Part shown: in pieces, positions 16,443-57,177 of the stretch
Layout: every line of letters starts with the position of its first letter
How positions within the stretch are numbered: position 1 is the stretch's first letter
Assembly (NCBI RefSeq): GCF_016863495.1
Contig: NZ_BOOZ01000025.1
Span: 62,001-126,000, forward strand
DNA: 64,000 nt
Reading direction: 5' to 3'
Origin: Micromonospora andamanensis
Lineage (GTDB): Bacteria; Actinomycetota; Actinomycetes; Mycobacteriales; Micromonosporaceae
Made by a program: the position numbers and the translations under genes
Notes under the pieces: model-generated
What the model was told of the DNA's origin: nothing
Seen by the model: the letters and a program-made list of their open reading frames with translations, nothing else
Database searches by the model: none

Positions 16443-17221
16443 CGGCACGACTGTCGGTCCTGTTCTCCGTCATGACGATTGTCGCGTTGGTCGGCTGCGG
16501 CGGTGGCCAGCAGAGCAGCGACCCGCGCCCCGGGGCCGGTGCCGTGGCCGGCGACGTCACGGTCTTCGCCGCCGCCTCGCTCACCGAGTCGTTCACCCGG
16601 ATCGGCGAGGACTTCGAGGCGGCGAATCCGGGCTTGCGGGTCTCCTTCAGCTTCGCCGGCAGTTCCGCCCTCGCGACCCAGATCAACCAGGGGGCACCGG
16701 CGGACGTGTTCGCCTCCGCCTCGCCAGCGAACATGACCACTGTCATCGACGCCGGTAACGGCGACGGCAACCCGAGTGTCTTCATCCGCAATCAGCTCGT
16801 GATCGCGGTACCCGACGGCAACCCGGACGGGGTGAACGGCCTGGCCGACCTCAACCAGCCGGACGTCAAGGTGGCGCTCTGCGCCGAACAGGTCCCCTGT
16901 GGCGCGGCGGCGCGGAAGGCCCTGGACGCCGCCGGGGTGGCACTCACCCCGGTCACCCTGGAGCGGGACGTCAAGGCGGCGCTGTCCAAGGTGCGGCTGG
17001 GCGAGGTCGACGCGGCACTTGTCTACCGCACCGACGCACGGGCCGCCGACGACGACGTCGACGGCATCGAGTTCCCCGAATCGGCCGGGGCGACAAACGA
17101 CTATCCGATAGTCGTGGTGAAGAACGCCCCGAACAGACCGGCCGCCCGGGCGTTCGTCGACCATGTGCGCTCCAGCCCCGGTCAGTCGGTCCTCACCGCC
17201 GCCGGGTTCCAGGCCCCGTAG
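16439..17221 (+). CDS. modA: Molybdate ABC transporter substrate-binding lipoprotein ModA
   Basis: 260 residues. Lipobox VALVGC (Cys about 19) after a short hydrophobic signal. The ModA fold is marked by VTVFAAASLTESFTRIGEDF (Ser ligand of the oxyanion), SFAGSSALATQINQGAPADVFASAS and VKAALSKVRLGEVDAALVYRTDA with the conserved tyrosine. It captures molybdate outside the cell for ModBC. Overlaps the regulator gene by four bases and ends three bases before modB. Confidence 0.95.
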   Translation: MTARLSVLFSVMTIVALVGCGGGQQSSDPRPGAGAVAGDVTVFAAASLTESFTRIGEDFEAANPGLRVSFSFAGSSALATQINQGAPADVFASASPANMTTVIDAGNGDGNPSVFIRNQLVIAVPDGNPDGVNGLADLNQPDVKVALCAEQVPCGAAARKALDAAGVALTPVTLERDVKAALSKVRLGEVDAALVYRTDARAADDDVDGIEFPESAGATNDYPIVVVKNAPNRPAARAFVDHVRSSPGQSVLTAAGFQAP

Positions 17222-17224
17222 TCG

Positions 17225-18070
17225 ATGTCCCCGCGCGACGCCGTGGCGGCGCGGCCCGACCGGCCCGCGCCACCACCACGACCCCGGCGAACCGGTCCGG
17301 TACCCGTGGCACTGCTGCTGCCCGCCACCCTCGGCCTGCTCTTCCTGGTGCTGCCGCTGGCCGGTCTGCTGATCCGGACACCGTGGAGCACGCTCCCGCA
17401 GCGCCTCACCGAGCCGGGGGTGCTCACCGCGCTGCGCCTGTCCGTGCAGGCCGCCACCCTCGCCACGCTGCTCTGCCTCGTCCTCGGGGTGCCTCTGGCC
17501 TGGTTGCTCGCCCGCGTCGACTTCCCGGGCCGTCGCCTGGTGCGTGCCCTGGTCACCGTGCCGCTGGTGCTGCCGCCGGTGGTCGGCGGCGTGGCACTGC
17601 TGCTCGTCTTCGGCCGGCGGGGCATCGTCGGCGGCTGGCTCGACAGCACCTTCGGGCTCACCCTGCCGTTCACCACCACAGGCGTGGTTCTCGCCGAGGC
17701 CTTCGTCGCGATGCCGTTCCTGGTCATCGCCGTCGAGGGCGCGCTACGCGGCGCGGACGTGCGGTACGAGGAGGCGGCGGCCACCCTCGGCGCCGGCCGG
17801 TGGACCACCTTCACCCACGTCACGCTCCCGCTCGTCGCGCCGGGTATCGCCGCCGGAGCGGTGCTGTGCTGGGCCCGGGCGCTCGGCGAGTTCGGCGCCA
17901 CCATCACCTTCGCCGGTAACTTCCCCGGCCGTACCCAGACCATGCCGCTCGCGGTGTACCTCGCCCTCGAAACCGACCTGGAGGCGGCGATCGTGCTCAG
18001 TCTCGTCCTGCTCACCGTCTCGGTGGTGATTCTGGTCAGCCTCCGCGACCGCTGGCTCAGCAGCCCGTGA
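17225..18070 (+). CDS. modB: Molybdate ABC transporter permease ModB
   Basis: 281 residues with five to six membrane segments and the ABC permease EAA loop EEAAATLGAGRWTTFTHVTL (about residues 180-199), followed by GIAAGAVLCWARALGEFGATITFAGN, the typical ModB/CysT signature. The N-terminal 25 residues are proline- and arginine-rich and cytoplasmic. It forms the membrane channel for molybdate with ModC; the downstream modC start overlaps its stop (GTGA). Confidence 0.95.
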   Translation: MSPRDAVAARPDRPAPPPRPRRTGPVPVALLLPATLGLLFLVLPLAGLLIRTPWSTLPQRLTEPGVLTALRLSVQAATLATLLCLVLGVPLAWLLARVDFPGRRLVRALVTVPLVLPPVVGGVALLLVFGRRGIVGGWLDSTFGLTLPFTTTGVVLAEAFVAMPFLVIAVEGALRGADVRYEEAAATLGAGRWTTFTHVTLPLVAPGIAAGAVLCWARALGEFGATITFAGNFPGRTQTMPLAVYLALETDLEAAIVLSLVLLTVSVVILVSLRDRWLSSP

Positions 18071-19200
18071 CCGCCGACCCGAGCGTGCCCGGCGCCGACC
18101 CACGGCCCGCCGGTGCGGTGCTCGACGCCCACCTCGTCGTGGACCGTGGCACCTTCCGACTCGACCTGCCGCTGACCATCGGTCCCGGCGAGGTCGTCGC
18201 CCTCCTCGGGCCCAACGGCGCCGGCAAGACGACAGCGCTGCGTGCCCTCGCCGGCCTGATCCCCCTCACCGACGGGCACCTCAGCATCGAGGGCCGTCAC
18301 CTGGACGATCCCGCCCGTCGCCTGTGGACCCCGACCGAGCAGCGGCCGATCGGTGTCGTCTTCCAGGACTACCTGCTCTTCCCGCACCTGACCGCCCTGG
18401 ACAACATCGCGTTCGGGCCGCGTCGCCAGGGCCTCGACCGGCACCGGGCCCGACAGCGGGCAGCGGACTGGCTGGCCCGGGTCGGGCTCGCCGAACACGC
18501 CCGACGCAAACCTCGGCACCTCTCCGGCGGGCAGGCCCAACGGGTGGCGCTGGCTCGTGCGCTCGCCGTCGAACCTGCCCTGCTCCTGCTGGACGAGCCG
18601 CTCGCCGCCCTCGACGCCCGTACCCGACTCGACACTCGCGCCCAGCTCCAACACCACCTCGCCGGCCACTGCGGCGCCACCCTGCTGGTCACCCACGACC
18701 CGATCGACGCCGTCGTACTCGCCGACCGGCTCGTCATCATCGAGAACGGGCAGGTGGTGCAGGAGGGCGACGTCGCCACCGTCACCGCCCGGCCGCGCAC
18801 CGACTACGTCGCCCGGCTAGTCGGTCTCAACCTCTACCGAGGTCATGCCGACGGACACCGGGTCCTGCTCACCGACGGATTCCACCTCGTCACCGGTGAC
18901 CAGCACGCCGGTGACGTCTTCGTCGCGTTCGCGCCGTCGGCCGTGGCACTGCATCCCGGTCGTCCCGACGGCAGCCCCCGCAACACCTGGCCGGCCACCA
19001 TCACCGGGATTCAACGCCACGGCGACAACCTGCGGGTGCAGCTCGGTGGCCCGGTCACTGTGGCGGCCGACATCACCCCGGCCGCCGCCGCCCAGCTGAA
19101 CCTGGCCCCCGGGCGGACACTCTGGGCTGCCGTCAAGGCTGCCGAAACCCGGGTCTACCCGGCCGCGGCGGCCCCCGCCGACGTCGCGGCCGAGCCATGA
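18067..19200 (+). CDS. modC: Molybdate ABC transporter ATP-binding protein ModC
   Basis: 377 residues from a GTG overlapping modB. Walker A LLGPNGAGKTTA (about 47-58), Q-loop VVFQDYLLFPHLTALDNIAF, signature LSGGQAQRVALARALA, Walker B LLLLDEPLAALD and switch LVTHDPIDAV. The C-terminal third is a TOBE regulatory domain (NTWPATITGIQRHGDNLRVQL). Length and order agree with ModC. It energises molybdate import; the operon ends here, facing the convergent NACHT gene. Confidence 0.95.
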   Translation: MTADPSVPGADPRPAGAVLDAHLVVDRGTFRLDLPLTIGPGEVVALLGPNGAGKTTALRALAGLIPLTDGHLSIEGRHLDDPARRLWTPTEQRPIGVVFQDYLLFPHLTALDNIAFGPRRQGLDRHRARQRAADWLARVGLAEHARRKPRHLSGGQAQRVALARALAVEPALLLLDEPLAALDARTRLDTRAQLQHHLAGHCGATLLVTHDPIDAVVLADRLVIIENGQVVQEGDVATVTARPRTDYVARLVGLNLYRGHADGHRVLLTDGFHLVTGDQHAGDVFVAFAPSAVALHPGRPDGSPRNTWPATITGIQRHGDNLRVQLGGPVTVAADITPAAAAQLNLAPGRTLWAAVKAAETRVYPAAAAPADVAAEP

Positions 19201-19243: not shown

Positions 19244-22200
19244 TCACCCGGCGGCAGCCGGTCCCGGGAAGTCGTCCGGGCCGGTGCCGGGTAGCGTCGC
19301 CAGCAGTTGGCCGGCGAGACCCCGTACGGTGGGGTCGGGCTGACCGGCCAGCCGGACGAGGATCGGCCGGGTCCGGGTGTCCGCACCGTAGTGCCGGGCG
19401 AGTGCGAGCAGCGAGGTACGGCGGATCTCCCAGTCCTCGTCGTCGACCAGCCGCATCAGCAGCTCCCGCACCCCGGTCCGGTCAGCCAGGTGGGCCGCGA
19501 GTTGCTCCGCGGCCCGACGCCGCACCTCCAGCGCCGGATCGTCACGCACCAGCCCCACCAACAGCACCCGGACCTCCGGGTCGTTGCCGAAATGCTCGCC
19601 GAGCGCCGCCGCGATGCGGGCCCGGATCGCCGGATCCCGGTCGGCCAGTCGGCGCATCAACCGCAGCGTCACCGCCATCGCGGTCTCGCCCCGGGCGATC
19701 AGGCAGCACACCGCAGCGTCGAACGCCGCCGGGTCGGTGTCGGACTCGATGCGCTCCAGCAGCACGTCGGTCACCACGTCCGGGCCGCCGTACGCGCTGA
19801 GGGTCTCCACGGCGGCGAGTCGGATGCCGGCGTAGCTGTCCCGGCGGGCCCGCCGGGACAGGGTCTCCACAAGCGCCTCGGTGCCACCATGGCGGGCCAG
19901 CGCCTGCGCGGCGGCACGCAGCACGTTCGGATCGGGATCGCGGCGGACCTGTTCGGCGAGGCACTCGACAACTGCCGTGTCGAGCGGATCACCAAGGCGG
20001 GCCAGGCTGCGGGTGACCCGCAGCCGCACGATCGGGTCCCGCTCCCGGGCGGCCCGGCTGATGAGCAGCTCACGCGTGGCGTGCCCGAGCGGTGGCCGGC
20101 CGGTGAGCAGGTCGACGGCGGCGAGCCGGACGCCCGCTGTGGGATCCTGGCGGGCCCGTTCCAGCAGCAGCTCGCCGGTGCGGTGATCCGGGTACGCCTC
20201 GGCCAGCGCACGAACCGCGGCGAGCCGCACCGTGGCGTCGTCGTCGGTCCGTGCCGCCTGCGCGGCCACCACCCACCCGCTGTCGTCCACCCGGTACCTG
20301 TCGGTCAGCGCCACCACAGCGGCCGACCGCACCGAGGCGTCCTCGTCCTGCTCGATCCGGTCCACCAGCCGGTCCCGGCACCGTCCGTCCGGGTCGTTGA
20401 CCAGCACCAGTCGCTGTACCGCCACCGCACGCACCCGCGCCGAGGCGTCCGAGCCGGCAAGTTTGAGCAGCAGCTCGGTGCCGTCCGTGCCGCCCGGCAG
20501 CAGTTCGCACACCAGGCAACGTCGCACCTCGTCCTCGGAATCGCCGGAGATCCGCGACAGGGCCCGGCCACGGGCCGTCTCGCTCTGCTCGGGGAGGGTG
20601 AGCAGGCACCGCAGCGCGGACTGCACCACACCGGGGTCGGTGTCGGCGGCCAGCAGGCGGTGCAGCGTCTCGGTGACGTCGGGCAGGTCGAGGCAGCGAC
20701 CCGCGAGCACCGTCACGGCGGCCCGCCGGACACCTGTGTCCCGGTCGTCCGTGGCCCGCGTCAGCAGCAGTCGTCGGACGTCCTCGGCCAGCTCGGTCCG
20801 CCCGCCGAGGGACTGCACCGCCAGGGCGCGGACCGCCGCGTCGGGCGAGCCGGCGAGGTCGCGCAGCACCTCGACCAGGTCGCCGCCGGTGCCGAAGTTG
20901 GCGACGAGAGCACGCACCGCGGCCTGCCGTACCGCGGTCGAGCCTTCCGCCCGCGCCTGCGTCAGCAGCAGATCCTGACAGTGGCGGCGACTGCGCCCGG
21001 TGGTGTCCAACCTCCCGGCGGCCTCGGCCAGGCCGGCGACCAGGGCGATCCGCGCCTGCCGCTCCCGACCCTGGCCGAGCTCCCGGACCAGCAGGTCCTC
21101 CAGCTGCTCATCGGCGGTGGACAGCACCGCCGCCGCCCGGGTGGCGAACGTCGATCCGGAGCGCCAGCTGGTACGCACCCCTCGTCGGCGGTACCAGTGC
21201 AGGAAGACGGCCCGGCCGGGCCACTGCGGTCCGAGCGCCCGGATCGAGGAGAGCAGTTCCTGCTCGGTGACCTCGACGAGGTTCGGATCGTCGGCCGAGA
21301 TGCCGTGCTCGACGAGCAGCACGACCTGGCGCAGCACCGCCTCGCCGGCACCGGCCAGCCCAGCCGGCTGCGGCGCCTCCGCCACGCACTGCGCGGCCAG
21401 CACCAGGTTCCACGGTGGACTGGCCAGGTTCAGCGGCGGCCACGGCCGGTTGACCTCGGTGGCCAGCAGGGTGACCAGTTCGTTGGCGACCTCGGCGGGC
21501 AGCGCGCCGGCGACCAGCCGCAACACCTCCCGCCAGGACGGATCTGCCCAGTTCTCCCGGAACAGCGCACGCAACTGGTCGATCCCCCAGGTCTCCGGGT
21601 CGTGATCGAACCTGTCCACGATCTCCTCGGCACAGAAGAACTCCAGAAACGTACGGTGCACGAACCCGAACAGGCGCAGCCCGTACCGTTCCAGGATGAA
21701 ACTGCGCTGGCGCAATTTGTCGATCATCGAGTACGCCATGGCGTGTGCGCGTTCGTTCTCGAAACCGTAGAACTCGACCAGATGGTCCCGGAAGATCCGC
21801 GACAGTTCATCCGCCTCGATGTAATTGCCGGCCGGCCCCGACTCCCGGCACTGCATCCAGAACGCCAGGTGGCGCAGCAGTCGCAGCTTCGCCTGCGGGT
21901 CCAGCGGCGGCACGTCGCCGTGGCTCTCCCGCAGTTGCTTGGTCACGTCCCATTCCGAGATCAGCACATCTGTGACGTGTGCGTAGAGGCGGCGACGGTT
22001 CCGGGGCAACGGGCGGTCCCGACCGACGATCGCCATGAGCATCAGCAGCAACGGGTTGCCGGCGATCTCGTGCATCGCCCTGGACCTTCGCACCACGTCG
22101 AGGATCTGCCGCCGTTGCCGGTCCGCCTCGACCGACGGGGTCGGCATCACGTACTCGTACCAGTTGCCGAGGAAGCGGGCGATCCGCTCGTCGTCGAGAT

Positions 22201-23470
22201 CCTCCAGGGTGAAGTGGTCGAATCCGGCGTTGGCGAAGGTGTGCCGCAGGTACCCGGCCGCCCGCGAGGTCACCACGGTACGCACCCCGGGGTACTCGTT
22301 GGCGAAGGTGGCGATCTGCGCCGCCATCTCCTCCCGCTGCGCCGGGTCGAACACCTCGTCCAGCCCGTCGAAGAGGAACAGCGCCTGGCCGCCCTGCCGC
22401 AGGTACGCCTCCAGCACGTCCCGGTCGATGCCGGCCAGCCCCTGCTGGTGGCGGTGGCCTACGTAGTCGAGCAGGCCGTCGCAGCGGCCGTCACCGCGAT
22501 GCGCCGCGTACGACCGGAGTTCGACGAGGACGGGAAGGTATCTGTCCAGCGCCGCCAGCCTGGGCTCCTCGCAGACCCCGGCCAGCGCGAGGGCGAGGTA
22601 GCGGGCGGCAGCCGACTTGCCGGAACCGGGATCGCCGAGCAGCACGATGGCCCGGCGGGCCGGGTCGCAGACCACGTCGAACAGTGGCGACGCCTCCTTG
22701 GCCGCGTACTCCTCCCAGAGCCGCTCGACGTCCCTCGGGTCCACCACACCGGGCAGCGCGCCCCCGTCACCGTCCGGGCCGGATCCGGCCCAGCGCCACC
22801 AGGCCAGCGGCATCTCCGGCCGGGCGTCCTCGTGCACCCTCGGCTCGACGAAGACGTTGGACAACCCGACGGTGAGGTAGCCGATGGTGGGCCGTGGCGC
22901 CACCGCGTCCAGCGGCACCGCCTGGTACCGCAGCCGGAGTTGCTTGTGGTACTGGCTGCGGGCCGCCTCCGGCAGGTGGGTGTCGGGGTCGCCCGGCTCA
23001 CGCGCGGGTGACCGACCGCTGCGCACATCGGCAAGCGCCACGGTGACCTTCGCCGACAGATCGTCCACGCTGGAGAAGAAGGCGCACAGGTGGCGTTCCT
23101 TCAGCTCGTGCCGCAGGGCCACGATCTGCTGCCAGTCGCCGTTACGGTCGATCATGTCGACCGGCCACGGCGTCTCCTCGGCGAGCAGAAAGATCAGGCA
23201 CGGTTTGCCGGCGGCGAGTGCCTCCCGGTATTCCAGCTCGGTGATGGAGGACTCCTGGCCGGCCGGCCGGTAACCGTAGCGCCAGGCGAAGAGACCCACA
23301 TAGAGGTCACATCGGCGTACGTCGGTCAAACAGCGTTCCAGAGGTGGGCGGACGTCGGCCCCGTACGCCTCCATGGCGACGTCCTCGATCTCCAGGCGAC
23401 GCGCCACCGCGTGCACGGCCGCGCGGTATTCCAGCAGGTCCTTTTGGGTGGCCGAAATGTATACCTTCAT
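19244..23470 (-). CDS. DUF4062-NACHT-HEAT repeat protein (STAND NTPase)
   Basis: 1,408 residues from the ATG at 23470, where the DUF4062 domain begins (MKVYISATQKDLLEYRAAV); a 38-residue upstream extension is not convincing. DUF4062 covers about residues 1-100, a TIR-like fold (VRRCDLYVGLFAWRYGYRP) found in STAND proteins. The NACHT NTPase has Walker A GDPGSGKS (about 279-286), Walker B LFLFDGLDE (about 363-371) and sensor region VRTVVTSRAAGYLR; a winged-helix/helical region follows. From about residue 800 to the end are roughly twenty HEAT-like repeats of the form (A)VRxAAVxAL. Such proteins act as ligand-triggered switches, some of them antiviral. It faces the SCO2521 gene head to head. Confidence 0.88.
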   Translation of the reverse strand: MKVYISATQKDLLEYRAAVHAVARRLEIEDVAMEAYGADVRPPLERCLTDVRRCDLYVGLFAWRYGYRPAGQESSITELEYREALAAGKPCLIFLLAEETPWPVDMIDRNGDWQQIVALRHELKERHLCAFFSSVDDLSAKVTVALADVRSGRSPAREPGDPDTHLPEAARSQYHKQLRLRYQAVPLDAVAPRPTIGYLTVGLSNVFVEPRVHEDARPEMPLAWWRWAGSGPDGDGGALPGVVDPRDVERLWEEYAAKEASPLFDVVCDPARRAIVLLGDPGSGKSAAARYLALALAGVCEEPRLAALDRYLPVLVELRSYAAHRGDGRCDGLLDYVGHRHQQGLAGIDRDVLEAYLRQGGQALFLFDGLDEVFDPAQREEMAAQIATFANEYPGVRTVVTSRAAGYLRHTFANAGFDHFTLEDLDDERIARFLGNWYEYVMPTPSVEADRQRRQILDVVRRSRAMHEIAGNPLLLMLMAIVGRDRPLPRNRRRLYAHVTDVLISEWDVTKQLRESHGDVPPLDPQAKLRLLRHLAFWMQCRESGPAGNYIEADELSRIFRDHLVEFYGFENERAHAMAYSMIDKLRQRSFILERYGLRLFGFVHRTFLEFFCAEEIVDRFDHDPETWGIDQLRALFRENWADPSWREVLRLVAGALPAEVANELVTLLATEVNRPWPPLNLASPPWNLVLAAQCVAEAPQPAGLAGAGEAVLRQVVLLVEHGISADDPNLVEVTEQELLSSIRALGPQWPGRAVFLHWYRRRGVRTSWRSGSTFATRAAAVLSTADEQLEDLLVRELGQGRERQARIALVAGLAEAAGRLDTTGRSRRHCQDLLLTQARAEGSTAVRQAAVRALVANFGTGGDLVEVLRDLAGSPDAAVRALAVQSLGGRTELAEDVRRLLLTRATDDRDTGVRRAAVTVLAGRCLDLPDVTETLHRLLAADTDPGVVQSALRCLLTLPEQSETARGRALSRISGDSEDEVRRCLVCELLPGGTDGTELLLKLAGSDASARVRAVAVQRLVLVNDPDGRCRDRLVDRIEQDEDASVRSAAVVALTDRYRVDDSGWVVAAQAARTDDDATVRLAAVRALAEAYPDHRTGELLLERARQDPTAGVRLAAVDLLTGRPPLGHATRELLISRAARERDPIVRLRVTRSLARLGDPLDTAVVECLAEQVRRDPDPNVLRAAAQALARHGGTEALVETLSRRARRDSYAGIRLAAVETLSAYGGPDVVTDVLLERIESDTDPAAFDAAVCCLIARGETAMAVTLRLMRRLADRDPAIRARIAAALGEHFGNDPEVRVLLVGLVRDDPALEVRRRAAEQLAAHLADRTGVRELLMRLVDDEDWEIRRTSLLALARHYGADTRTRPILVRLAGQPDPTVRGLAGQLLATLPGTGPDDFPGPAAAG

Positions 23471-23681
23471 CGACGGCAAACTCCAGGGGTGGCTGGCGAC
23501 CGCATTCTTCAAAATATCAGCCGTTGTCACATCCATCGGTCCCGTGAGTCCGCACCCGAGGGCACATATCGGCTTTCCCACCACGGATGGGCCTATGATG
23601 ACCGCGGGACGGATTCGATCCGGTCACCGGCCGCAGGCCCATGCCCGCCGGTGTCCCCCGTGGTGCCGATGCGGAGGAACC
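23471..23681. promoter_or_regulatory. Divergent promoter region between NACHT and SCO2521-family genes
   Basis: No gene fits in these 211 bases, and A/T content is above the surroundings (for example AAAATATCAG at about 23510). A TATGAT hexamer at 23594-23599 lies 83 bases before the plus-strand start and could be its -10 element; the -35 match is weak. The minus-strand promoter was not found with confidence. Confidence 0.4.
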
Positions 23682-24719
23682 ATGCTCACGGTGGGCGAGG
23701 TGCACACCAGCCTGCTGCAGCACAGCACGGCGCTGGCGCAGGACCAGAGCGCCGAGGTGCTCAACCTGGTGGAGGGCGAGGCCGTGCTGACCTCGCGGCG
23801 TCCGTCGCTGTACGCGGTCTCGCCCGATGTCCGTACCGGTGTGGACTGCTGGCTGCCGAGCGCGAAGAACCGCCAACTGCGTGGGGTCGGTGCGGTGGTC
23901 ACCCGGGCGGTCATCACCGGCGGGCGGATCGTGCAGGCCTCCTCCATCATCCAGGTGGTCGCCGGGGAGCGCCGCCGACCGTGGTCGCACTACCTGGCCA
24001 ACTCGGGTGTGCTGGAGACGGTCGGCAAGCTGGACGCCGACGACCTGACAAACGGCTTCCTGCACGGCAACGCCGCCGACGTGCTGAACCTGGACGCGAT
24101 CACCGGTCGGGTGCTCGACAGTGTCCAGATGTCCGACCTGCTGGACCGGCGTCCGCCGCTGCGTGCGGCGCGTACCCGGCTGCGCTGGACCGCGCAGGTG
24201 CACCGGCAACCGGGCGAGCACGCCACGGCTGACGTCGCGGTGGACTCACCGACGTTGCGCACCGTACGGCTCACGGTGAGCCCGCAGGACGTGCCGGCGG
24301 CGGTCGCCGGCCTCTGCGAGGATCTCGCCCTGCACGACTGGCTGCTCACCATGCTGTCCGCCCTGGTGGAAGCCGCGGTGACCCGCGCCGGCTCGACGCA
24401 GGAGCACATCGAACGGCTGCGGCCGGTGCTGGAGCACCTGCTGCACCTGTGGCTGCCAGGTGCCCGGGTCGACCCGCGACTGCGGCCGATCTGGGACCGG
24501 CTGGAGCAGGTTCCGGGGTTCAGCCGGCAGTGGCAGTCCTCGGTCAACTGGATCCGGGATCAGATCACCGTCGGCAACATGGCCATCCTGCGCGACCTGG
24601 CCGCCCGGGCGGCGAGTCAGTCGTACGGGTCGGCCACGCTCACCGAACCCTTCTCGACCGCCGGCAGCGGCCCGTCGGACCGCAGGGTCGGGCGCGGTGC
24701 GCAGGCACCACGCGGCTGA
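23682..24719 (+). CDS. SCO2521 family protein
   Basis: 345 residues from the ATG at 23682, preceded by GGAGG. I recognise it as the SCO2521-type protein by its opening (MLTVGEVHTSLLQHSTALAQ) and its place beside the other four SCO2522-SCO2525-type genes. Other recognisable parts are LRGVGAVVTRAVITGGRIVQ and a C-terminal helical region (VEHLLHLWLPGARVD-like, ending WQSSVNWIRDQITVGNMAI). No enzyme motif or membrane segment is visible. Function is unknown in any organism as far as I know. It converges on the SCO2522 gene with no gap at all. Confidence 0.75.
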   Translation: MLTVGEVHTSLLQHSTALAQDQSAEVLNLVEGEAVLTSRRPSLYAVSPDVRTGVDCWLPSAKNRQLRGVGAVVTRAVITGGRIVQASSIIQVVAGERRRPWSHYLANSGVLETVGKLDADDLTNGFLHGNAADVLNLDAITGRVLDSVQMSDLLDRRPPLRAARTRLRWTAQVHRQPGEHATADVAVDSPTLRTVRLTVSPQDVPAAVAGLCEDLALHDWLLTMLSALVEAAVTRAGSTQEHIERLRPVLEHLLHLWLPGARVDPRLRPIWDRLEQVPGFSRQWQSSVNWIRDQITVGNMAILRDLAARAASQSYGSATLTEPFSTAGSGPSDRRVGRGAQAPRG

Positions 24720-25688
24720 TCACTCGCCGATGAACACGTAGCTCAGCCGGTCGACAAGTTCGTCGGGCAACTCCAGGCCCTCGCTGCCGGCCCGCTTGGC
24801 TACCTGCTTCGCGACAGCGGGTGGCACCGCCACCTGCCCGAGGATGGTCCGTACGGCCAACTCGACCGGGAGATAGCGGGTGTCCATGAGCGTCACCGTG
24901 CGGTACCCGCAGAACGGCGTGGCGTCCGGGTTCAACTGGACGATCGCGGGCAGCCGGTCCCAGTCGGTCGGCAGCGGCTCGTCGGGAGGCAGCCGGTACG
25001 GCTGGGTGATCGTCTGTCCCCGGTGCCGCAGGACGCCCAGCCGGGTCATCTGCCACACCGAGGCGAGCAGCGCGCACGCCCACACCCGACGGTCCGGCTC
25101 GTCGGACCACAGTTCGATGTCGACGAAAATCGAGTGCGGCGCGTCGCCGGACTGCAACGGCGGGGACCACGGCACCGGCAGCGTCATCGCGGGCGCATCG
25201 GCATGACCCGGGGTCCGCTTGCCGTTGGACAGCCAGCCCGACTCACTCAGCGGTGGGCGACTCCCCGTGGTGTGCCGTGGCGGTTCCACCACGAGCGTGT
25301 CCACCACCAGCCGGGCCAGTTCGACGTCGTCGTAGCGGGCGAAGCTGGACTCGCGCGCCACGTAGTCGAGCACCAGCCCGTGCTCCGCTGCGGCCTGCTG
25401 CACCTGCGGGATCACCTCGCGCGGTGTGGCGAACCGGTGGAAGTAGTCGTCGACGAGGAAGCAGGTGCTGATCCTGGGTTGCCGGTGGGGGCGCAGCCCT
25501 CGACGGGCGAGCGCCGGGACCGCCTGCGCCCAGTCGGCGATCCGGGCGAACTTGCGCCGCAGATCCCGGCACCCGTCGCCGAAGTCCTCGGCGTAGACGT
25601 GCCCCAACTCGACCGACAGATGCGAGTACGGCACGCTCTCCGTACGACGCACCGCAGCTGCCTCCTGAAACCTGACATCCACGCTCAT
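24720..25688 (-). CDS. SCO2522 family protein
   Basis: 322 residues from the ATG at 25688, which overlaps the stop of the SCO2523 gene by one base (TGATG). Recognisable family features are VPYSHLSVELGHVYAEDF near the N-terminus, HRQPRISTCFLVDDYFHRF and PREVIPQVQQAAAEHGLVLDY, and the C-terminal CGYRTVTLMDTRYLPVELAV with a short acidic helix at the end. The region TCFLVDDYF could be a strand with acidic ligands, but no known catalytic motif is visible. Last gene of the SCO2524-2523-2522 operon; function unknown. Confidence 0.72.
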   Translation of the reverse strand: MSVDVRFQEAAAVRRTESVPYSHLSVELGHVYAEDFGDGCRDLRRKFARIADWAQAVPALARRGLRPHRQPRISTCFLVDDYFHRFATPREVIPQVQQAAAEHGLVLDYVARESSFARYDDVELARLVVDTLVVEPPRHTTGSRPPLSESGWLSNGKRTPGHADAPAMTLPVPWSPPLQSGDAPHSIFVDIELWSDEPDRRVWACALLASVWQMTRLGVLRHRGQTITQPYRLPPDEPLPTDWDRLPAIVQLNPDATPFCGYRTVTLMDTRYLPVELAVRTILGQVAVPPAVAKQVAKRAGSEGLELPDELVDRLSYVFIGE

Positions 25689-26617
25689 CACACGGTCTCC
25701 CATGCGGTCTCGTCGAAGAGCTTCTCGGTCAGCCCCACGAAGGCGTCCACGGTCCGGGCATTGGCGATCTTGGCCTGGACGTCGTTGTCGGAGATGAGCT
25801 GCTCGCGCCATTGCAGCAGCGGATCCAACGGCACCGCGCCGAGCAGCGTGGTCCGGCCGGTGCCCCGCCTGCGAGCCAGCTCCGCCAGTTCCGCGTCACA
25901 CCTGCGCAGGAACGCCTGCTGCGCCAGGTCGAGATGGCCAACCTCGGGACCGCGTGCATCGATCACGGCGGTCCGCACGAACCGCAGCGACTCCCGTAGC
26001 CGGTCCGGCTCGTGGCCGTACTCCTTGCCCATGGCCAGGATCCCGCCGGACTCGAAGGCGAGGTCGGCCGCCGCCATCACGTGCTGCGGCGTCCAGCGAT
26101 GAAAGACCAGCCACCGCACCGTCACCTTGCGCAGGGTCCGGTTGGCGGTGGCGGCAAGCGCGATCTGGCTGGCGTACGAGCGACCGGCGCTCAGATCCAC
26201 AAGGGTCAGGTCGAACTCCTCCTCCAGCCGGAGGAACAGCTCGGCGCAGCGTCGGCCGATGTCGTCGGTGAAGCCGAACTCGCTGCCGCTGCGCTGCCCG
26301 GGCAGCAGCACCAACGAACCCGAGCCGGTCGGCCGTTGGCGCAGGCTGACCCGTTCCGAGGTGCCCCACACGTCCAGCTGCTCCGGTGACGGGATCTCAC
26401 CGCGCAGGTACCGGTGCAGGCCGCCGCCGTTCGGACCGGCGCCCTCGATGCCGTTCGTCGCCTGGGGGATCTGGAAGGTGATGCCGGCCGTCGGCGAGCC
26501 GAAGTCGTAGTCCAGATAGCAGGTGGAGCGGCCGGAGAGCGCACTGCGATAGGCGATGTTCGCCGCGGTCACCGAGCGCCCGGTGCCACCCTTGTGCGAC
26601 GTGACGAAGACCAGCAT
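25688..26617 (-). CDS. SCO2523 family variant P-loop ATPase (MinD/ParA-like)
   Basis: 309 residues. The fold is that of MinD/ParA/SIMIBI ATPases: MLVFVTSHKGGTGRSVTAAN at the start, then CYLDYDFGSPTAG (switch I region) and LTLVDLSAGRSYA (Walker B/switch II). The deviant Walker A KGGTGRS keeps the signature lysine (K9) but replaces the usual P-loop lysine by arginine (R14), hence the variant P-loop name. ParA-like proteins place or assemble partners by ATP-driven dimerisation; here the partners would be the SCO2524 and SCO2522 proteins, translated from the same message with junctions of zero bases and one base. Confidence 0.8.
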   Translation of the reverse strand: MLVFVTSHKGGTGRSVTAANIAYRSALSGRSTCYLDYDFGSPTAGITFQIPQATNGIEGAGPNGGGLHRYLRGEIPSPEQLDVWGTSERVSLRQRPTGSGSLVLLPGQRSGSEFGFTDDIGRRCAELFLRLEEEFDLTLVDLSAGRSYASQIALAATANRTLRKVTVRWLVFHRWTPQHVMAAADLAFESGGILAMGKEYGHEPDRLRESLRFVRTAVIDARGPEVGHLDLAQQAFLRRCDAELAELARRRGTGRTTLLGAVPLDPLLQWREQLISDNDVQAKIANARTVDAFVGLTEKLFDETAWETV

Positions 26618-28459
26618 TCAGATCCCCTCGCTGGCCTTCTGTTGGCCGGTGGTGATGTCGTTGAGCTGGAGCAGCAGGGTGCTCGCCAGCGCGGCGGCCG
26701 TACCCGGCTGGTCGTCCACAAGCGACTGCGCACGGCGCAGCGTAGCCCGGATGCTGCGCATGCTGCGCTGCATGGGCTCACCGGCGAACGTGCCGCTCAT
26801 CAGCTCACGGTCGAACACGTACTCGGCCTCGTCGATGAGGTCCTGGGCGTAGGTGGCAAGGTTCACCGCCCGGGGGAACTGCCGCTCCCAGAGCAGCTGA
26901 CCGGCGTTGACCAGGGCCTGGACGACGCGCTCGGTCAGGTACCAGGAGGGTGCCTCGGGCAGCGGGGCCAACTCGGGGAACGCGCCGCCGGCATGGTCCC
27001 ACAGCCCTCGGTGCCGGCCCTCGGGGATGCGCCGCAGCAGGAGGTGCTCCCACACCTCGTCGGCGAGTTCGAGCAGCTCGCTGCGGCGTCGGGCATTGTT
27101 CAGCAGGCCGGCGACGGTGGTCGCCCGTTGGAGCAGCACAGTGGAGAACTCGTTGACGTTCCACGTCATGATCGGCTTCGACGTGGCGTCGTTCAGGGTC
27201 ACCTGCTTGCCGGGGGCGTGCACGACCAGGGCGGCCTCGTTGGGCGAGGCTCGGCGGGTGATCCGGCCCCGCTGCGCCAGCTCGACGAGCACGTTCGCGA
27301 TCCGCCCGAACTCCTCGTCGCCGCCGCGCCCGCTGGCGACGAGCCCTTTGACCGCCAGCGAGGTGGCCTGCAACGTGTAGTAGTCCGTCCGGTCGCCGTC
27401 GGTGGTACGCCAGGGAATGTCCTCGATCGGCCACCGCCGCCGGTTGCCGAATGTCGCCACCGTCGCCCAGTAACGCCGGGTCAACTCCCACCGCAGTTGC
27501 AGAATCCGGAACAGCCGCTGCTGTTCCTCGTTGAGCAGACCGAGCAGCCGGGTACGTTCGGAGTTGAGATCGTCGATGGCGTCGACCGCGATCACCGTGA
27601 AGTAGAGATACGGGGCGTTCTCCGCGGTGCCCTCGCGCTGCCGGCCGATCGGGTCGGTCGTCGCGACCTCGTCGGCACCGGCGATGGTCCCCCACGACCA
27701 GCCACACTCGAAGAGCATCTCGCTGTTGTCCAGGTCCTCGGTGACCTGACCGGACCCGACCACCACGTTGCGCAGGCTCGCCATGGTGTCCCGCAACTGC
27801 GTACGCAACGCGGCCACCACCTCGCGGCGCGGCACCTCGTCCTGGTTGACCATGTCGCACAGCCGGATGCCGAACTCGTCGGTCGCGGCGAAGACCGAGG
27901 TGCTGAAGCTACGGAGCAGGCCGACCATGGCCGCGGTGAGGCGTACGCTCGCCATCTCCTCCAACGTGTCCAGTTGGGCGCGCAGGTCGGCCCGCTGGGT
28001 GGAGGGACGATAGATCTTGACGAAACCGATTGTCGCCAGGGTGAGCGTGACCGACACCGCGAAGGAGTCGACCACATCCATGGAGCGCTGCTCCTCGGTG
28101 AGATCCGGCCCACCCTCGACAGGGGTGAGGTAGCTGCCACCACCGAAGGTCGGCGCGCCGGTGTCGTCCGTGTAGCGGACGAAGTACTCGCTCATGATCC
28201 GGACCAGTCGGCGGGGAATCTCTATCGCGCCACCGATCGTGCCGAGGGCCTCGATGACCTCTTCGTCGATCCGGTCCGGGTCGTCCAGGGACAACACCGG
28301 GATCTTGGTCGCCGGCAGCAGCAGAGTCAGCAGTTGCTCCGCGTCGCTGATGGAATTGGAGCCGCTCCGGCCGCCCCAATCCCATTCACCGTCGCGTAGG
28401 CAGCTGCGCACCGTGGCTCGCCAGATGTCGAGAATCTCCTGGCGCGGCTGCATCCGCAT
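26618..28459 (-). CDS. SCO2524 family protein
   Basis: 613 residues, mostly helical, starting MRMQPRQEILDIWRATVRSC. The family is recognised by context and by segments such as LLTLLLPATKIPVLSLDDPD, RLVRIMSEYFVRYTD and LWERQFPRAVNLATYAQDLI. One moderately hydrophobic stretch (SFAVSVTLTLATIGFVKIY, about 130-150) might touch the membrane but is too weak to call. No catalytic motif is seen. Stop and the next start are directly adjacent (TGAATG), so this is the first and largest product of a three-gene operon. Confidence 0.72.
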   Translation of the reverse strand: MRMQPRQEILDIWRATVRSCLRDGEWDWGGRSGSNSISDAEQLLTLLLPATKIPVLSLDDPDRIDEEVIEALGTIGGAIEIPRRLVRIMSEYFVRYTDDTGAPTFGGGSYLTPVEGGPDLTEEQRSMDVVDSFAVSVTLTLATIGFVKIYRPSTQRADLRAQLDTLEEMASVRLTAAMVGLLRSFSTSVFAATDEFGIRLCDMVNQDEVPRREVVAALRTQLRDTMASLRNVVVGSGQVTEDLDNSEMLFECGWSWGTIAGADEVATTDPIGRQREGTAENAPYLYFTVIAVDAIDDLNSERTRLLGLLNEEQQRLFRILQLRWELTRRYWATVATFGNRRRWPIEDIPWRTTDGDRTDYYTLQATSLAVKGLVASGRGGDEEFGRIANVLVELAQRGRITRRASPNEAALVVHAPGKQVTLNDATSKPIMTWNVNEFSTVLLQRATTVAGLLNNARRRSELLELADEVWEHLLLRRIPEGRHRGLWDHAGGAFPELAPLPEAPSWYLTERVVQALVNAGQLLWERQFPRAVNLATYAQDLIDEAEYVFDRELMSGTFAGEPMQRSMRSIRATLRRAQSLVDDQPGTAAALASTLLLQLNDITTGQQKASEGI

Positions 28460-28515
28460 GGTCCACCACCGTCTGCTGTAGTCGTCGAAACGGAGCTGCT
28501 GATGTTGCCTGGCTC

Positions 28516-28549
28516 ACGATGATCCACGATGACGTGCACCCATCATCGT
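28516..28549. promoter_or_regulatory. Triple ACGATGA motif upstream of the SCO2524-2523-2522 operon
   Basis: The 205 bases 28460-28664 hold no gene. Within them ACGATGA occurs at 28516-28522 and 28526-28532 (10-bp step, one helical turn) and inverted as TCATCGT at 28543-28549. The cluster lies 57 bases upstream of the SCO2524 start. The spacing suggests a binding site for a regulator contacting one face of the helix. No known consensus is matched. Confidence 0.4.
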
Positions 28550-28664
28550 ATCCCTGTCGGTGCGTGACCTGAACGGCCGTGCGTACCGATGTCCTGGGGA
28601 AACCAGGTGAGCCAAGCGTCCAGGTGAGAGCGATGCGGGGATCCCCGGCGGACAATGTGCGACG

Positions 28665-29459
28665 TCAGCCGCGACTACGTCCGGTGACCAGCAACATGCC
28701 CTGATAGCCGTCCCGCAGCGACGGCGTGGGTCGCACCTCGTGCATGTCCACGTCGTACGCTCCGGCCGCGATGCTCACCACCACTTCCGCACGGTGCAGT
28801 TGCACGGCCGGGAACCAGTGCTGTCCGACGCGGTAACCGTTCGAGCCCAGCATGAAGGCCGCGGCGAACGGCGAACCGGGGTGCAGGGCCCCCAGGAACC
28901 GGCCGATCGCGTGCTCGGCCTCGCTGCGGTCAGCCGAGATCGAGCAGGCCACGAAGAACATGGTGCCCGCGCCCCAGGCCCGTCTGGGCAGGTCGAAGAC
29001 GCTGAGCTGGGACACGTGACCCACCCGGGCCAGGTGACTGCGGGGGTCGGCCAACGCCGCGTACGCCGGGTGCTCCGCGCACACCTGCCAGTACGCATCC
29101 CAGCACTCGTCATAGCCACTGATCTGGTGACGCAACCAGCGCACATTCGCCGTGGAATATTCGCACAGTTCGACGCTGCGCGCGAATGGCAGAAGGGACA
29201 GCGCCGGGTAGAGGTTCGCGCCCGATCCCACATCGACGCAGTGCGCGCCAGTAATCTTCGCTTCCGCGAAAAAGTCTCTGATCCGACAGAGAATTTCGCG
29301 ATCATCGTCGCGCAGGACCGAGTAGTTGTGCTGGACGTAGGCGCGCGGGTCGAAGCCGTCCCACTCGACCTCGGAATTGACCGTTCCGGGGGACTCGACT
29401 CGTGGCGGTGGGGTCGACGGCCCACTACAACCTGCACCAGCCGCCGGAATCAATGCCAT
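28665..29459 (-). CDS. SCO2525 family SAM-dependent methyltransferase
   Basis: 264 residues from the ATG at 29459; the first 30 residues are proline-rich and a GTG at residue 27 could be the true start. The NNMT/PNMT-like class I fold is visible: YVQHNYSVLRDDDREIL, motif I CVDVGSGANLYPALSLLP (about 73-90), motif II-like VELCEYSTANVRWL, and ISADRSEAEHAIGRFLGALH. It should transfer a methyl group from S-adenosylmethionine to a small amine or a protein; the substrate is unknown. Separated from SCO2524 by 205 bases with its own leader. Confidence 0.82.
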   Translation of the reverse strand: MALIPAAGAGCSGPSTPPPRVESPGTVNSEVEWDGFDPRAYVQHNYSVLRDDDREILCRIRDFFAEAKITGAHCVDVGSGANLYPALSLLPFARSVELCEYSTANVRWLRHQISGYDECWDAYWQVCAEHPAYAALADPRSHLARVGHVSQLSVFDLPRRAWGAGTMFFVACSISADRSEAEHAIGRFLGALHPGSPFAAAFMLGSNGYRVGQHWFPAVQLHRAEVVVSIAAGAYDVDMHEVRPTPSLRDGYQGMLLVTGRSRG

Positions 29460-30467: not shown

Positions 30468-31079
30468 TCAGGATGTGCCGCGGACGACACCGGGTGGGAA
30501 GCTGACCCGGTCGGCCTCGGTGTCGAGGTCGCCGCCGACGGCGACGTCGTCGCACGGTACGACCCGCAGTTCCGCCGCCCGCCGCCGCAGATAGCCACGG
30601 GCTCCGGTGTCGCCGACGGCCGAGGCCGCCACCTCCGTCCAGTGCGTCCGGCCGAGCAGGACCGGATGACCGCGCCCGGCACCGTAGCCCGCCACGGCGA
30701 GCGCGTCCGGGGCGGCGAACGCGGCCAGCCGGCGTACCGCCGCCGCGGTGACACCCGGCATGTCGACAAGCAGAACCACCACGGCGACCGCCTCGGTCGC
30801 CCGCAGCGCGGCGAGACCTGCCCGCAACGACGAGCCCATGCCGCTCGCCCAGTCGGGATTGTCGACAGGCACGGCGGCGGCGAGGTCGGCCCGGGCACGC
30901 ACCACCGGCGCCTGCGCACCGAGGACCACCTGAACCGGCCGACAGCCGGCCGCGCGGGCAGTGTCGACAGCCCGCTCCACGAGCAGCCGGCCGCCGAACT
31001 CCAGCAGGGCCTTGGGGCGTCCGTAGCGACGGCCGGCACCGGCGGCGAGGATCAGCGCCGCCGGCTGTCCCACGTCCAC
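30468..31079 (-). CDS. MobA-like NTP transferase (molybdenum cofactor cytidylyltransferase type)
   Basis: 203 residues. Signature of the GT-A-like nucleotidyltransferases: ALILAAGAGRRYGRPKALLE (about 8-27), then PVDNPDWASGMGSSLRAGLA and VVVLLVDMPGVTAAAV with the metal-binding Asp, and GYGAGRGHPVLLGRTHW. The GMGSSL and DMPG motifs are those of MocA/PucB-type enzymes, which add CMP to molybdopterin cofactor. It stands 11 kb from the modABC operon, so a molybdoenzyme link is supported by family rather than by position. Confidence 0.82.
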   Translation of the reverse strand: MDVGQPAALILAAGAGRRYGRPKALLEFGGRLLVERAVDTARAAGCRPVQVVLGAQAPVVRARADLAAAVPVDNPDWASGMGSSLRAGLAALRATEAVAVVVLLVDMPGVTAAAVRRLAAFAAPDALAVAGYGAGRGHPVLLGRTHWTEVAASAVGDTGARGYLRRRAAELRVVPCDDVAVGGDLDTEADRVSFPPGVVRGTS

Positions 31080-31194: not shown

Positions 31195-33570
31195 CTACCC
31201 GTCGACCGGCGCGCCCAGCCGGGCGAGCGCGCCTCGGGCACGAGCCTGCTCCTCGGGTCTGTCGATCTCCGTGGCCAGGGCCAGCGCCTCGACGTGCCGG
31301 GCGACCGCCTCGTCCCGTACACCCTGCCCGGTGAGCGCCCGCCCCAGTCCGTTGAGTACGCACGCCTCGCCGTACCGTTCGCCGATGTCCCGGAAGAGGG
31401 CGAGGGCCGGTTCGTAACACTCGACGGCGTCCGCGAACCTGCCAAGTGCCACGTAGGTGTCGCCCAGGTTGTTCAGTGCGGTCGCCTCTCCGCCGAGATG
31501 CCGCAGCTCACGGAAGATCGCCAGGGCGCGGCTGTTCTGTTCGACAGCGGTGCCGGGGCGGCCCAACCGTTCGTGCACGGCGCCCAGATTCGTCAGGGTG
31601 TTGGCCTCGCCGACCCGGTCGCCGATCTGGACGAAGCGGTCGAGCGCCAGCTCGTGGTACCCACCGGCACGCTCCCAGTACCCGGCCGCACTGTGCACGA
31701 CGCCGAGGTTGCCCAGCACCCGGGCCTCACCACGCCCGTCACCTGCCGCGCGGAACAGCGGCAGCGCGCGTTCCAGATGCCCGATCCCCTCCGGATAGCG
31801 ACCCAGCTGCCAGCACACCACGCCCAGGTTGGTCAGGGCGGTGGCCTCGGCGACGGTGTCGCCGAGCAGCCGGGCAGCGCGCTCGGCCTCGGTGTGCACC
31901 GTGATCGCGTCGGCCGGGTACCCACCGTTGTCGAGGTAGACGTACAGGGTGCCGGCGAGCCACACGGCGTGCTGCGGCCAGCCGTTACGCGCCGCGTGTA
32001 CGCACACCGCGACGAGGGTCGCCCGCTCCGCGTCCAGCCAACGCAGTGCGGTCCTGGGCTTGTCGAGCAGCGGACCGGCCGGGGGGCGCGGTGGCAGCGG
32101 TGGCCGGCGGTGTCGCTCGGCGGGGTACAGCGCCTCCATGGCCGCCGCCGCGCTGTACAGGTAGTGATCGAGCAGACGGGTCAGGGCGGCCCGCCGGTCC
32201 GCCGGCCGGTCCTCCTCCCGGCCCCGCTCCCCCGCGTAGGCGCGGACGAGGTCGTGCAGCGCGTACCGGCTGAGGACGGGCTGCTGGACCAGATACTCGG
32301 CGGCGAGATGACGCAGGTCGACGGCGGCGGTGGCCGGTTCGCTGTCCAGCAGGGCGGCGGCACCGTGCTCGTCCAGATCCGCGCCGGGATGCGCGGCCAT
32401 CCGGCGCAGCAGCGTCTGCCGGCGCTCCGGCAGATGCTGGTACGACAGGTGCAGCGCCAGCTCGACACCGCTGTCGAGCCGGCGGTGCCGGTGACGCTCG
32501 TCCAGCCGGTCCGCGTGGTCGGTGACCGTCCATCCGGGCCTGGTCGCCATCTGCCCGACAACCACGCTCAGCGCCAGCGGCAGGTAACCGCAGCGCAGCG
32601 CGACCCGCGCGGGTGCCGACGGGTCGCTGCCCACCGGCACGCCGGGGTTCGACCTGACGAGCAGCCGCGCCGCCTCCTCCGGGCTGAACAGGTCGAGGTC
32701 GAGATGGACCGCCTCATCCAGGTCGGCGAGCCGACGACGGGAGGTGACGAGGGTCAGGGTGCCGGCCGACCGGGCCAGGAGCGGACGCACCTGCTCCGCA
32801 CCGGCCGCGTTGTCGAGCACCACGAGCACCCGCCGGCCCGCCAGCCGCTCCCGGAACGCCGTCGCACGCTCCACCAGGCCGTACGGGATCTCGTGGCCGG
32901 ACATGCCGAGCAGACGCAGGAAGCCGTCGAGCACCGCGCCCGGCTCGGCCGGCGGCTGCCCCGGATCCGGATGGTAGCCACGCAGGTCGACGAAGAGAGT
33001 CGTGTCGAAACGACTGTCGTCGACAAGCGACTGGCCGGCGTGGACCGCGAGGTGGGTCTTGCCGACCCCGGCCATGCCGGCGATCACGCAGACCTGCGCG
33101 CCGTGCCCGGTCCCGGAGGTGGCGGTGTCCGGCGCCGCGGTCAGCGCGGCAAGTTCCCGCAGCCGGGTCAGCTCCGCCTGGCGGCCCGTGAAGGCGCCCG
33201 CGTCGTCGGGCAGCCGGTCGAGCACTCGCACCTGGGCGGCCGCGGTCGTCTCGGCGAGGCTCACCCGCAGCGCCTGTCGCCAGTGCGCGAGGTAACCCGT
33301 CTCGTCGTGCAACGCTTGCACGACGGCGAGCACCAGGTCGACGTTGATCCTCCGGCGCCCGGTCTTGAAGCAGTCCACGACGGTGCCTCGGCGGGCCAAC
33401 TCGTCGGTGGGCCGACGGTCGGCCTGCCACCGCTCGTTCACCCGCCGGGTGATCGTCTCGAACGAGGGATCACCGGCCCAGAGTTTGAGTGCGCGCAGGC
33501 AGCCGATCAACTCGTCGAGGCTGTGGGCCGTGCCCGGGTCGGGTGGCCCATCGGACACGGCAGCCTTCAT
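31195..33570 (-). CDS. NB-ARC/TPR regulator (AfsR/SARP-like without SARP domain)
   Basis: 791 residues from the ATG at 33570. The N-terminus (about 15-100) resembles the divergent helix-turn-helix head of actinobacterial STAND regulators (LDELIGCLRALKLWAGDPSF, ITRRVNERW). The NB-ARC ATPase follows: FTGRQAELTRL, Walker A GMAGVGKT (165-172), Walker B RRVLVVLDNA and the GLPL-like YLPLALSVV. The C-terminal 250 residues hold about six TPRs (ALTNLGVVCWQLGRYPEGIG, TLTNLGAVHERLG, ALNNLGDTYVALGRFADAVE). Such proteins are ATP-dependent switches, often of secondary metabolism. No biosynthetic target lies next to it. Confidence 0.88.
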   Translation of the reverse strand: MKAAVSDGPPDPGTAHSLDELIGCLRALKLWAGDPSFETITRRVNERWQADRRPTDELARRGTVVDCFKTGRRRINVDLVLAVVQALHDETGYLAHWRQALRVSLAETTAAAQVRVLDRLPDDAGAFTGRQAELTRLRELAALTAAPDTATSGTGHGAQVCVIAGMAGVGKTHLAVHAGQSLVDDSRFDTTLFVDLRGYHPDPGQPPAEPGAVLDGFLRLLGMSGHEIPYGLVERATAFRERLAGRRVLVVLDNAAGAEQVRPLLARSAGTLTLVTSRRRLADLDEAVHLDLDLFSPEEAARLLVRSNPGVPVGSDPSAPARVALRCGYLPLALSVVVGQMATRPGWTVTDHADRLDERHRHRRLDSGVELALHLSYQHLPERRQTLLRRMAAHPGADLDEHGAAALLDSEPATAAVDLRHLAAEYLVQQPVLSRYALHDLVRAYAGERGREEDRPADRRAALTRLLDHYLYSAAAAMEALYPAERHRRPPLPPRPPAGPLLDKPRTALRWLDAERATLVAVCVHAARNGWPQHAVWLAGTLYVYLDNGGYPADAITVHTEAERAARLLGDTVAEATALTNLGVVCWQLGRYPEGIGHLERALPLFRAAGDGRGEARVLGNLGVVHSAAGYWERAGGYHELALDRFVQIGDRVGEANTLTNLGAVHERLGRPGTAVEQNSRALAIFRELRHLGGEATALNNLGDTYVALGRFADAVECYEPALALFRDIGERYGEACVLNGLGRALTGQGVRDEAVARHVEALALATEIDRPEEQARARGALARLGAPVDG

Positions 33571-56990: not shown

Positions 56991-56993
56991 GTG

Positions 56994-57145: not shown

Positions 57146-57177
57146 CCCCGGATGGGCACCCGAACCAGCTACGAGTG

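Follow-up and report, generated by a model that had tools for sequence, protein, structure and literature searches.

Proteins with the TIR-like DUF4062 domain are reported to hydrolyse NAD+, defend Escherichia coli against phages and need a catalytic Glu, and about 20% of DUF4062 homologues lie in defence islands (preprint PMC13174449). The preprint also describes human proteins, namely TEP1, NWD1, NWD2 and NPHP3, in which DUF4062 stands beside a NACHT domain. MinD/ParA-like domains that are predicted to be inactive have been described in conflict systems, some of them with AP-ATPases in actinobacteria (PMC7159879). The SCO2521-SCO2525 protein families of actinobacteria (hereafter SCO252x) have names but no assigned function; mutagenesis of SCO2525 is mentioned in PMC3017869. 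Here we describe a cassette located at positions 19244 to 29459 of a 64,000-nucleotide stretch of the Micromonospora andamanensis genome (the whole stretch is hereafter denoted the window), where a gene for a large DUF4062-NACHT-HEAT protein of the STAND type adjoins the SCO2521-SCO2525 genes.

The DUF4062-NACHT gene is a dedicated partner of the SCO252x set, although the set does not always include it. Most copies of the gene are linked to the set, with which it is co-inherited; in other lineages, other genes take its place beside the same core, and both the Glu at the putative catalytic position and the Walker motifs are conserved. We propose, with about an even chance of being right, that the locus encodes an alarm system of modular build, acting in cell fate or conflict, in which a fixed SCO2521-2524 core is combined with an exchangeable output, here the destruction of NAD+.

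Linkage of the DUF4062-NACHT gene to the SCO252x set

The survey covered 354 genomes of the family, including a genus subset of 160 genomes. Residues 1-800 of the NACHT protein served as the query with the limit E<=1e-30, the matches that included the DUF4062 part were counted by hand, and gene presence in the loci was tabulated from tblastn searches with thresholds of our own choice. SCO2524 was detected in 166 of the 354 genomes (165 above the cut-off) and in none of the other 188. The NACHT query matched 95 of the 354 genomes, and altogether 76 DUF4062-NACHT genes were identified, of which 65 (one in the window and one in each of 64 fetched loci) are located within a SCO252x cassette; for the remaining 11, no core gene was found in the approximately 20 kb fetched around each. 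Plain arithmetic, as opposed to measurement on random loci, puts chance placement within 8 kb of an 8-Mb genome at about 0.2%. In the genus, 35 of the 160 genomes carry SCO2524, and 33 of these 35 also possess a DUF4062-NACHT gene, linked in 32 and unlinked in one (G638); the exceptions are G587, which carries the c23 partner (see below), and G634, with partial SCO2524 matches and no DUF4062-NACHT match. None of the 125 genus genomes without SCO2524 yielded a DUF4062-NACHT gene at E<=1e-30, and in the family only one genome of the 188 without SCO2524 did so (G438). The same NACHT gene is found in the same place in 19 of the 20 named Micromonospora/Verrucosispora loci retrieved with SCO2523, so that the arrangement in the window is not a matter of chance; SCO2524 was not seen in the sole exception, L049, either.

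The partners of the core were compared across 124 loci with full SCO2521-2524, drawn from 129 fetched core loci and representing 30 genera (118 loci within the family and 6 outside). The five loci with an incomplete core (L072, L108, L138, L145 and L146) were excluded, and the set of 124 is also distinct from the short loci L001-L030, the named loci L031-L050, whose species are partly shared with other loci, and the SCO2524-positive genomes that were not fetched. The NACHT gene is the partner in 64 of these loci, a gene denoted c1 in 49 and a NACHT-WD40 gene (c23) in 4, with none of these in the remaining 7; no locus among the 124 carries two partner types. The sequence-only reading of the window had suggested that the NACHT gene and the SCO252x genes may form one system, in which a ParA-like variant ATPase and a methyltransferase might act on helical partners, and had singled out the constancy of the NACHT gene as the key question. 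The unit is borne out by the 65 of 76 genes found within a cassette and by a head-to-head pair that is retained in 64 of 64 loci and in about nine contexts; constant membership has to be abandoned, with the NACHT gene present in only 64 of the 124 loci.

The gene order around this pair varies. SCO2521 and the NACHT gene are divergent in all 64 loci, with a D-amino-acid-oxidase-like (DAO) gene between them in 12; in 27 of the 64, the two genes together have the opposite orientation with respect to SCO2522-2524. The spacing between the two genes is 194-303 bp in 31 Micromonospora loci and 165-348 bp elsewhere in the loci without an intervening DAO gene. Grouped by eye on the genes beyond NACHT, the 31 Micromonospora NACHT loci represent about nine NACHT-side contexts, the largest of which (c20/c19) comprises 12 loci, with a further 9 at the window-like site; within the c20/c19 group, the genes beyond SCO2525 vary. 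The modC gene, which adjoins the cassette in the window, is present in 152 of the 160 genus genomes and, among the places listed, is adjacent to the cassette only in the genome of the window and six relatives. Given the variation of the flanking genes and the rarity of modC beside the cassette, the cassette behaves like a single unit, which usually extends from the NACHT gene to SCO2525.

The SCO2524 tree (123 rows, obtained with a quick method that issued long-branch warnings; L152 and L162 were omitted as they contain no whole SCO2524 frame) places 63 NACHT rows, together with two c1 rows and one partnerless row, on one side of a branch with SH-aLRT support of 99 (66 rows in total), and the four c23 rows group together with support of 100. 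The partner labels require 7 changes on this tree, compared to a mean of 47.3 for shuffled labels, and therefore partner type tracks core subtype. Partner types are split within genera g1, g239 and g249, which suggests that the cassette was transferred between lineages. For the 60 rows shared by the NACHT and SCO2524 trees, the distances are correlated with r=0.958, a value as high as this being reached in 0 of 2000 permutations; the NACHT tree omits four short frames (L055, L078, L137 and L162). Several stand-alone copies branch off linked ones in the NACHT tree, where deeper stand-alone branches are also present. A longer stand-alone copy, of 2,061 residues (L153:8589-14771), has nSTAND5 ATPase and classical TIR domains in addition, and its genome also has a linked copy. 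Genome G503 possesses two NACHT cassettes, L100 and L101, which are placed well apart on the tree. L055 shows a frame split in the NACHT gene as well as in SCO2523, through either joint decay or sequencing error.

The DUF4062-NACHT-HEAT protein

The NACHT gene (19244..23470, minus strand) encodes a protein of 1,408 residues, the start of which fits an ATG at 23470; an alternative GTG frame is longer. All three domain types that the sequence-only reading had named are present: DUF4062 at residues 2-84 (23219..23467, minus strand; PF13271, 73.2 bits, cut-off 24.7), NACHT at residues 273-437 (22160..22654, minus strand; PF05729, 42.2 bits, cut-off 26.7) and, with approximate limits, a HEAT-repeat region at about residues 800-1397 (19280..21073, minus strand; HEAT_2, PF13646, 168 bits in 8 stretches). 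The Walker A (GDPGSGKS) and Walker B (LFLFDGLDE) motifs reported for this protein are both present in the window translation; of the 64 linked NACHT proteins, 62 have a recognisable Walker A and 60 a recognisable Walker B, with four frames being short. The NACHT profile, the two motifs and the C-terminal repeats place the protein in the NACHT clade of STAND proteins. A 1,234-residue open frame at 19307-23011 (plus strand), antisense to the NACHT gene, is probably a by-product of high GC content.

A profile made from 31 DUF4062 rows matches the structure of the antiphage NADase Swarozyc (KpSwz; 10wc, E=4.6e-11) and the TIR domain of TEP1 (11gz, E=3.8e-8). Glu80 of the window protein (codon at 23231-23233, minus strand) falls in a column that is conserved among the relatives, with Glu in 95 of 95 DUF4062 rows (75 loci, 19 named loci that partly repeat those, and the window). 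From the alignment, we infer that the Ala of 10wc that faces Glu80 is the E97A position of the KpSwz construct. The protein can thus be assigned to the DUF4062 family by a domain above the cut-off, a relationship to characterised members and a Glu that appears equivalent to KpSwz E97. From its protein families, we infer NAD+ hydrolysis and oligomerisation and, by analogy with the characterised members, the triggered NACHT protein probably destroys cellular NAD+. A search of plasmids with residues 1-800 of the NACHT protein gave distant matches in 76 records, none of which covers 80% of the query and all of which are less than 60% identical.

The core proteins

The remaining five genes of the cassette are located where the sequence-only reading had placed them, and all score above the curated NCBIfam cut-offs, in their usual neighbourhood. 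The SCO2521 gene (23682..24719, plus strand; about 345 residues; NF040565, 369 bits, cut-off 150) is divergent from the NACHT gene across an intergenic region of 211 bp (23471..23681), the spacing that was compared among loci above; its start is placed near 23682, given that the family match begins at residue 108 of a longer frame. It is followed tail to tail, at the junction 24719/24720, by SCO2522 (24720..25688, minus strand; 322 residues; NF040566, 449 bits, cut-off 200), which is tightly coupled with SCO2523 (25688..26617, minus strand; NF040564, 428 bits, cut-off 200) and SCO2524 (26618..28459, minus strand; 613 residues; NF040567, 797 bits, cut-off 300). The zero spacing reported for these genes is confirmed at the SCO2521/2522 and SCO2523/2524 junctions (the latter at 26617/26618), whereas SCO2522, with a start near 25688, overlaps the final base of SCO2523. 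Beyond a spacing of 205 bp lies the gene for the S-adenosylmethionine-dependent methyltransferase SCO2525 (28665..29459, minus strand; NF040568, 311 bits, cut-off 240), the start of which is uncertain, the NF040568 match beginning at residue 28; the match to PF01234 (49.5 bits) identifies it as NNMT/PNMT/TEMT-type. All six frames of the cassette have a GC fraction at third codon positions of 0.80-0.90 and contain zero TTA codons.

SCO2523 is a MinD/ParA-like protein with the P-loop KGGTGRS. The pattern KGG[TA]GR[ST] was found in 123 of 123 sequences, and therefore the P-loop Lys is replaced by Arg in SCO2523; the window sequence is 97-99% identical in four Micromonospora/Verrucosispora records. 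SCO2524 has no Pfam match at E<=0.001 and contains invariant Trp, His and Arg residues. Its structural model (predicted local distance difference test score, pLDDT, 93.3; predicted template modelling score 0.90) is, with high confidence, that of an (alpha/alpha)6 toroid, a predicted fold that does not show function; the closest structures are sugar 2-epimerases/isomerases (5x32, Z 20.4, root-mean-square deviation 4.0, 336 residues aligned with VIA-align), and Foldseek gave no match at E<=0.001, the best being at 9.3e-3. For SCO2521, an AlphaFold model with pLDDT of 91.7 was likewise without a Foldseek match at E<=0.001. A CorA cytosolic-domain fold was considered for SCO2521 and rejected, given that the best Z of 7.3 (root-mean-square deviation 3.4, 99 residues aligned) is within the range without a clear match, and no fold is claimed. 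The SCO2521 and SCO2522 profiles had no convincing relative in the PDB.

On one side the cassette is flanked by molybdate-type ABC transporter genes (16439-19200, plus strand) and on the other by a MobA-like gene (30468-31079, minus strand). A second STAND-type protein, with NB-ARC and TPR repeats (830 residues; 31195-33687, minus strand), is encoded three genes beyond SCO2525, and a tRNA-Ser (gga) gene is located at 39110-39203 (plus strand). An Rfam scan of the window at the gathering threshold gave as its sole match a cobalamin riboswitch (56979-57184, minus strand), far from the cassette.

Exchangeable partners of the core

The c1 proteins are about 320 residues long and have between one and three hydrophobic segments close to the start (two in 32 of the 49), and the C-terminal part matches DUF6879 above the cut-off in 2 of the 4 members scanned; the c1 profile had no convincing relative in the PDB. 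All five fetched loci of genus g7, which belongs to another family and is presumed to be Streptomyces, carry c1 in the order SCO2525-2524-2523-2522-2521-c1 on one strand, and many other genera also carry c1 instead of NACHT. The c23 protein (1,804 residues in L106) contains an NA-iREase3 domain, pentapeptide repeats and WD40 repeats, and its NACHT-like region was recognised solely through sub-cut-off matches to antiphage families of the NACHT type. Proteins of the c23 type are encoded beside SCO2524 in a separate core group (L106:181-5595, and also L058, L140 and L183). The DAO gene (PF01266) is present in 44 of the 49 c1 loci versus 17 of the 64 NACHT loci and was thus not found in 47 of the latter; SCO2525 was not found in 29 of the 64.

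Proposed mechanism and alternative explanations

Under the alarm-system proposal, SCO2521-2524 would be the fixed core, and the neighbouring large gene the exchangeable output, in filamentous actinobacteria. The HEAT repeats would hold the NACHT ATPase off until it is released by a signal that the core transmits or gates, with SCO2521 as a putative cognate adaptor and SCO2522-2523-2524 as a possible sensing or thresholding complex that includes the altered MinD-like protein. The NACHT domains would then assemble with ATP and bring together the DUF4062 domains, which would hydrolyse NAD+, so that the hyphal compartment might be arrested or killed. The combination of a NADase domain with its putative catalytic residue, a STAND switch, output exchange and patchy presence points towards an output of the immunity type. 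A broader version, which we advance tentatively and at somewhat less than even chances, is that SCO2521-2524 might serve as a common control chassis for alarm systems of actinobacteria that form a class not yet described, each core subtype having co-evolved with its own interchangeable output; the core would then be built on the Arg-substituted MinD-like protein and the toroid protein, and the outputs would be the NADase-STAND protein, a membrane protein that ends in a DUF6879-like part, or a NACHT-WD40 protein whose nuclease domain is degenerate.

Several observations weigh against the alarm system. The 11 DUF4062-NACHT genes outside cassettes are one such observation, and G638 holds a stand-alone NACHT gene, the only SCO2524 of that genome being displaced and containing an internal stop; given these stand-alone genes, the NACHT protein may be active independently of the core. 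L078 has a frame-split NACHT gene and L137 a truncated one, the core genes being open in both, with sequencing error being possible. About 7 events underlie the exclusivity of partners, as counted on the quick tree with its long-branch warnings. In a single-sequence PDB search with the DUF4062 domain of the window, TEP1 came up at no better than E 0.089 and KpSwz was not retrieved. When the proteins of the window were compared with PADLOC-DB 2.0.0, SCO2523 alone gave a match (to PDC-M28B, 16.4 bits), with nothing relevant. The 114 flanking proteins that were scanned (from 222, reduced to 146 after removal of similar ones, with 145 selected) are mostly ordinary, with scattered PADLOC hits to 12 models, each with at most two members and with no control set; the strongest matches are to the MADS models mad3 (2.6e-38) and mad8 (5.8e-22). 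As regards a defence-island location, the PADLOC and Pfam scans of these flanks gave only scattered matches. SCO2524 was not matched in plasmids or phages, nor in viral contigs (pattern scan), and the idea that the core came from a plasmid, a phage or another virus was rejected on these grounds. Finally, in Streptomyces coelicolor the sco2521-sco2526 operon is placed in the HupS regulon (PMC11472566), SCO2525 is cited as necessary for normal growth (Gehring 2004 as cited by PMC11472566) and a morphogenetic role is ascribed to SCO2525 (PMC6344877).

The main alternative, which we consider somewhat unlikely, is that filamentous actinobacteria use the core in growth or development (hyphal growth, envelope or chromosome handling), with the NACHT protein being a lineage-specific regulator that has no killing output. 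This would agree with the HupS regulon and the SCO2525 phenotype, as given in those sources, with the mostly ordinary flanks and the lack of a plasmid, phage or viral match to SCO2524, and with the retention of c1 in all five fetched g7 loci. The sequence-only reading had stated that its proposal would suffer if the SCO252x genes were core developmental genes with constant non-NACHT neighbours; half of this holds, as shown by the constant c1 of genus g7 and the reported role of SCO2525 in growth and development. The core is, however, dispensable, given that SCO2524 was not found in 188 of the 354 family and 125 of the 160 genus genomes and that some g7 genomes have no SCO2523 match; moreover, the partners are exchanged, and one of them has a TIR-like NADase domain with a conserved Glu at the putative catalytic position.

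Alternatively, the core could make or modify a small molecule, with SCO2524 as an epimerase-like enzyme, SCO2525 as a methyltransferase and the DAO protein as further participants, and with the NACHT, c1 or NACHT-WD40 protein as a receptor or safeguard. We regard this scenario as doubtful. The proximity of the SCO2524 model to sugar 2-epimerases/isomerases (Z about 20), the invariant Trp, His and Arg of SCO2524, the NNMT type of SCO2525 and the distribution of DAO genes are compatible with it, but the same fold serves many functions, the Pfam and Foldseek searches with SCO2524 fell short of E<=0.001, and SCO2525 and DAO were not found in many NACHT loci, in the numbers given above. Mere neutral linkage, whereby the NACHT gene happens to adjoin the core and is inherited along with it, could account for the tree through a single origin and few later changes, close loci not being independent, but is very improbable, because the SCO2521/NACHT pair survives inversion, DAO insertion, flank changes and identities down to about 40%, co-inheritance is tight (r=0.96) and the gene occurs in none of the 125 genus genomes without SCO2524.

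Comparison with known systems

Each ingredient of the cassette is of a known kind; as far as our searches show, in literature that was mostly non-subscription, neither their combination nor the swapping of outputs on a single core has been described. Neither PMC7159879 nor PMC8195603 uses the term SCO2 in its main text, and that of PMC8195603 does not mention DUF4062 either. For families that have so far only been named, the link of one branch to a STAND protein of the NADase type, together with the change of outputs beside the same core, provides a testable handle on the whole SCO252x set, which extends to the Streptomyces version, where the role of SCO2525 in growth and development has been reported.

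The cassette resembles Swarozyc in the DUF4062 TIR-like domain, the conserved Glu at the putative catalytic position and the profile match to 10wc. Swarozyc is a short DUF4062 protein with a C-terminal auxiliary domain (the deposited KpSwz chain has 326 residues), unlike the window protein, which with 1,408 residues includes NACHT and HEAT regions and is linked to a five-gene set, and the flanking proteins scanned are mostly ordinary. With the NTP-dependent conflict systems of multicellular prokaryotes, the cassette shares STAND-type ATPases and MinD/ParA-like domains predicted to be inactive (PMC7159879), and it differs in that no MoxR or vWA family was found among the ten window neighbours scanned. 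The five families are those of the SCO2521-SCO2525 set (NF040564-NF040568), with NACHT as the partner in the window versus c1 in genus g7. The human proteins TEP1, NWD1, NWD2 and NPHP3 are reported to have the same juxtaposition of DUF4062 and NACHT, and the TIR domain of TEP1 is matched at 3.8e-8; several proteins of this type have WD40 repeats after NACHT, whereas the window protein has HEAT repeats instead, is bacterial and is linked to SCO252x. If the proposed alarm system is real, bacterial DUF4062 NADases would comprise, besides short proteins, a system of several genes whose DUF4062-NACHT-repeat layout resembles the one in TEP1 and NWD1.

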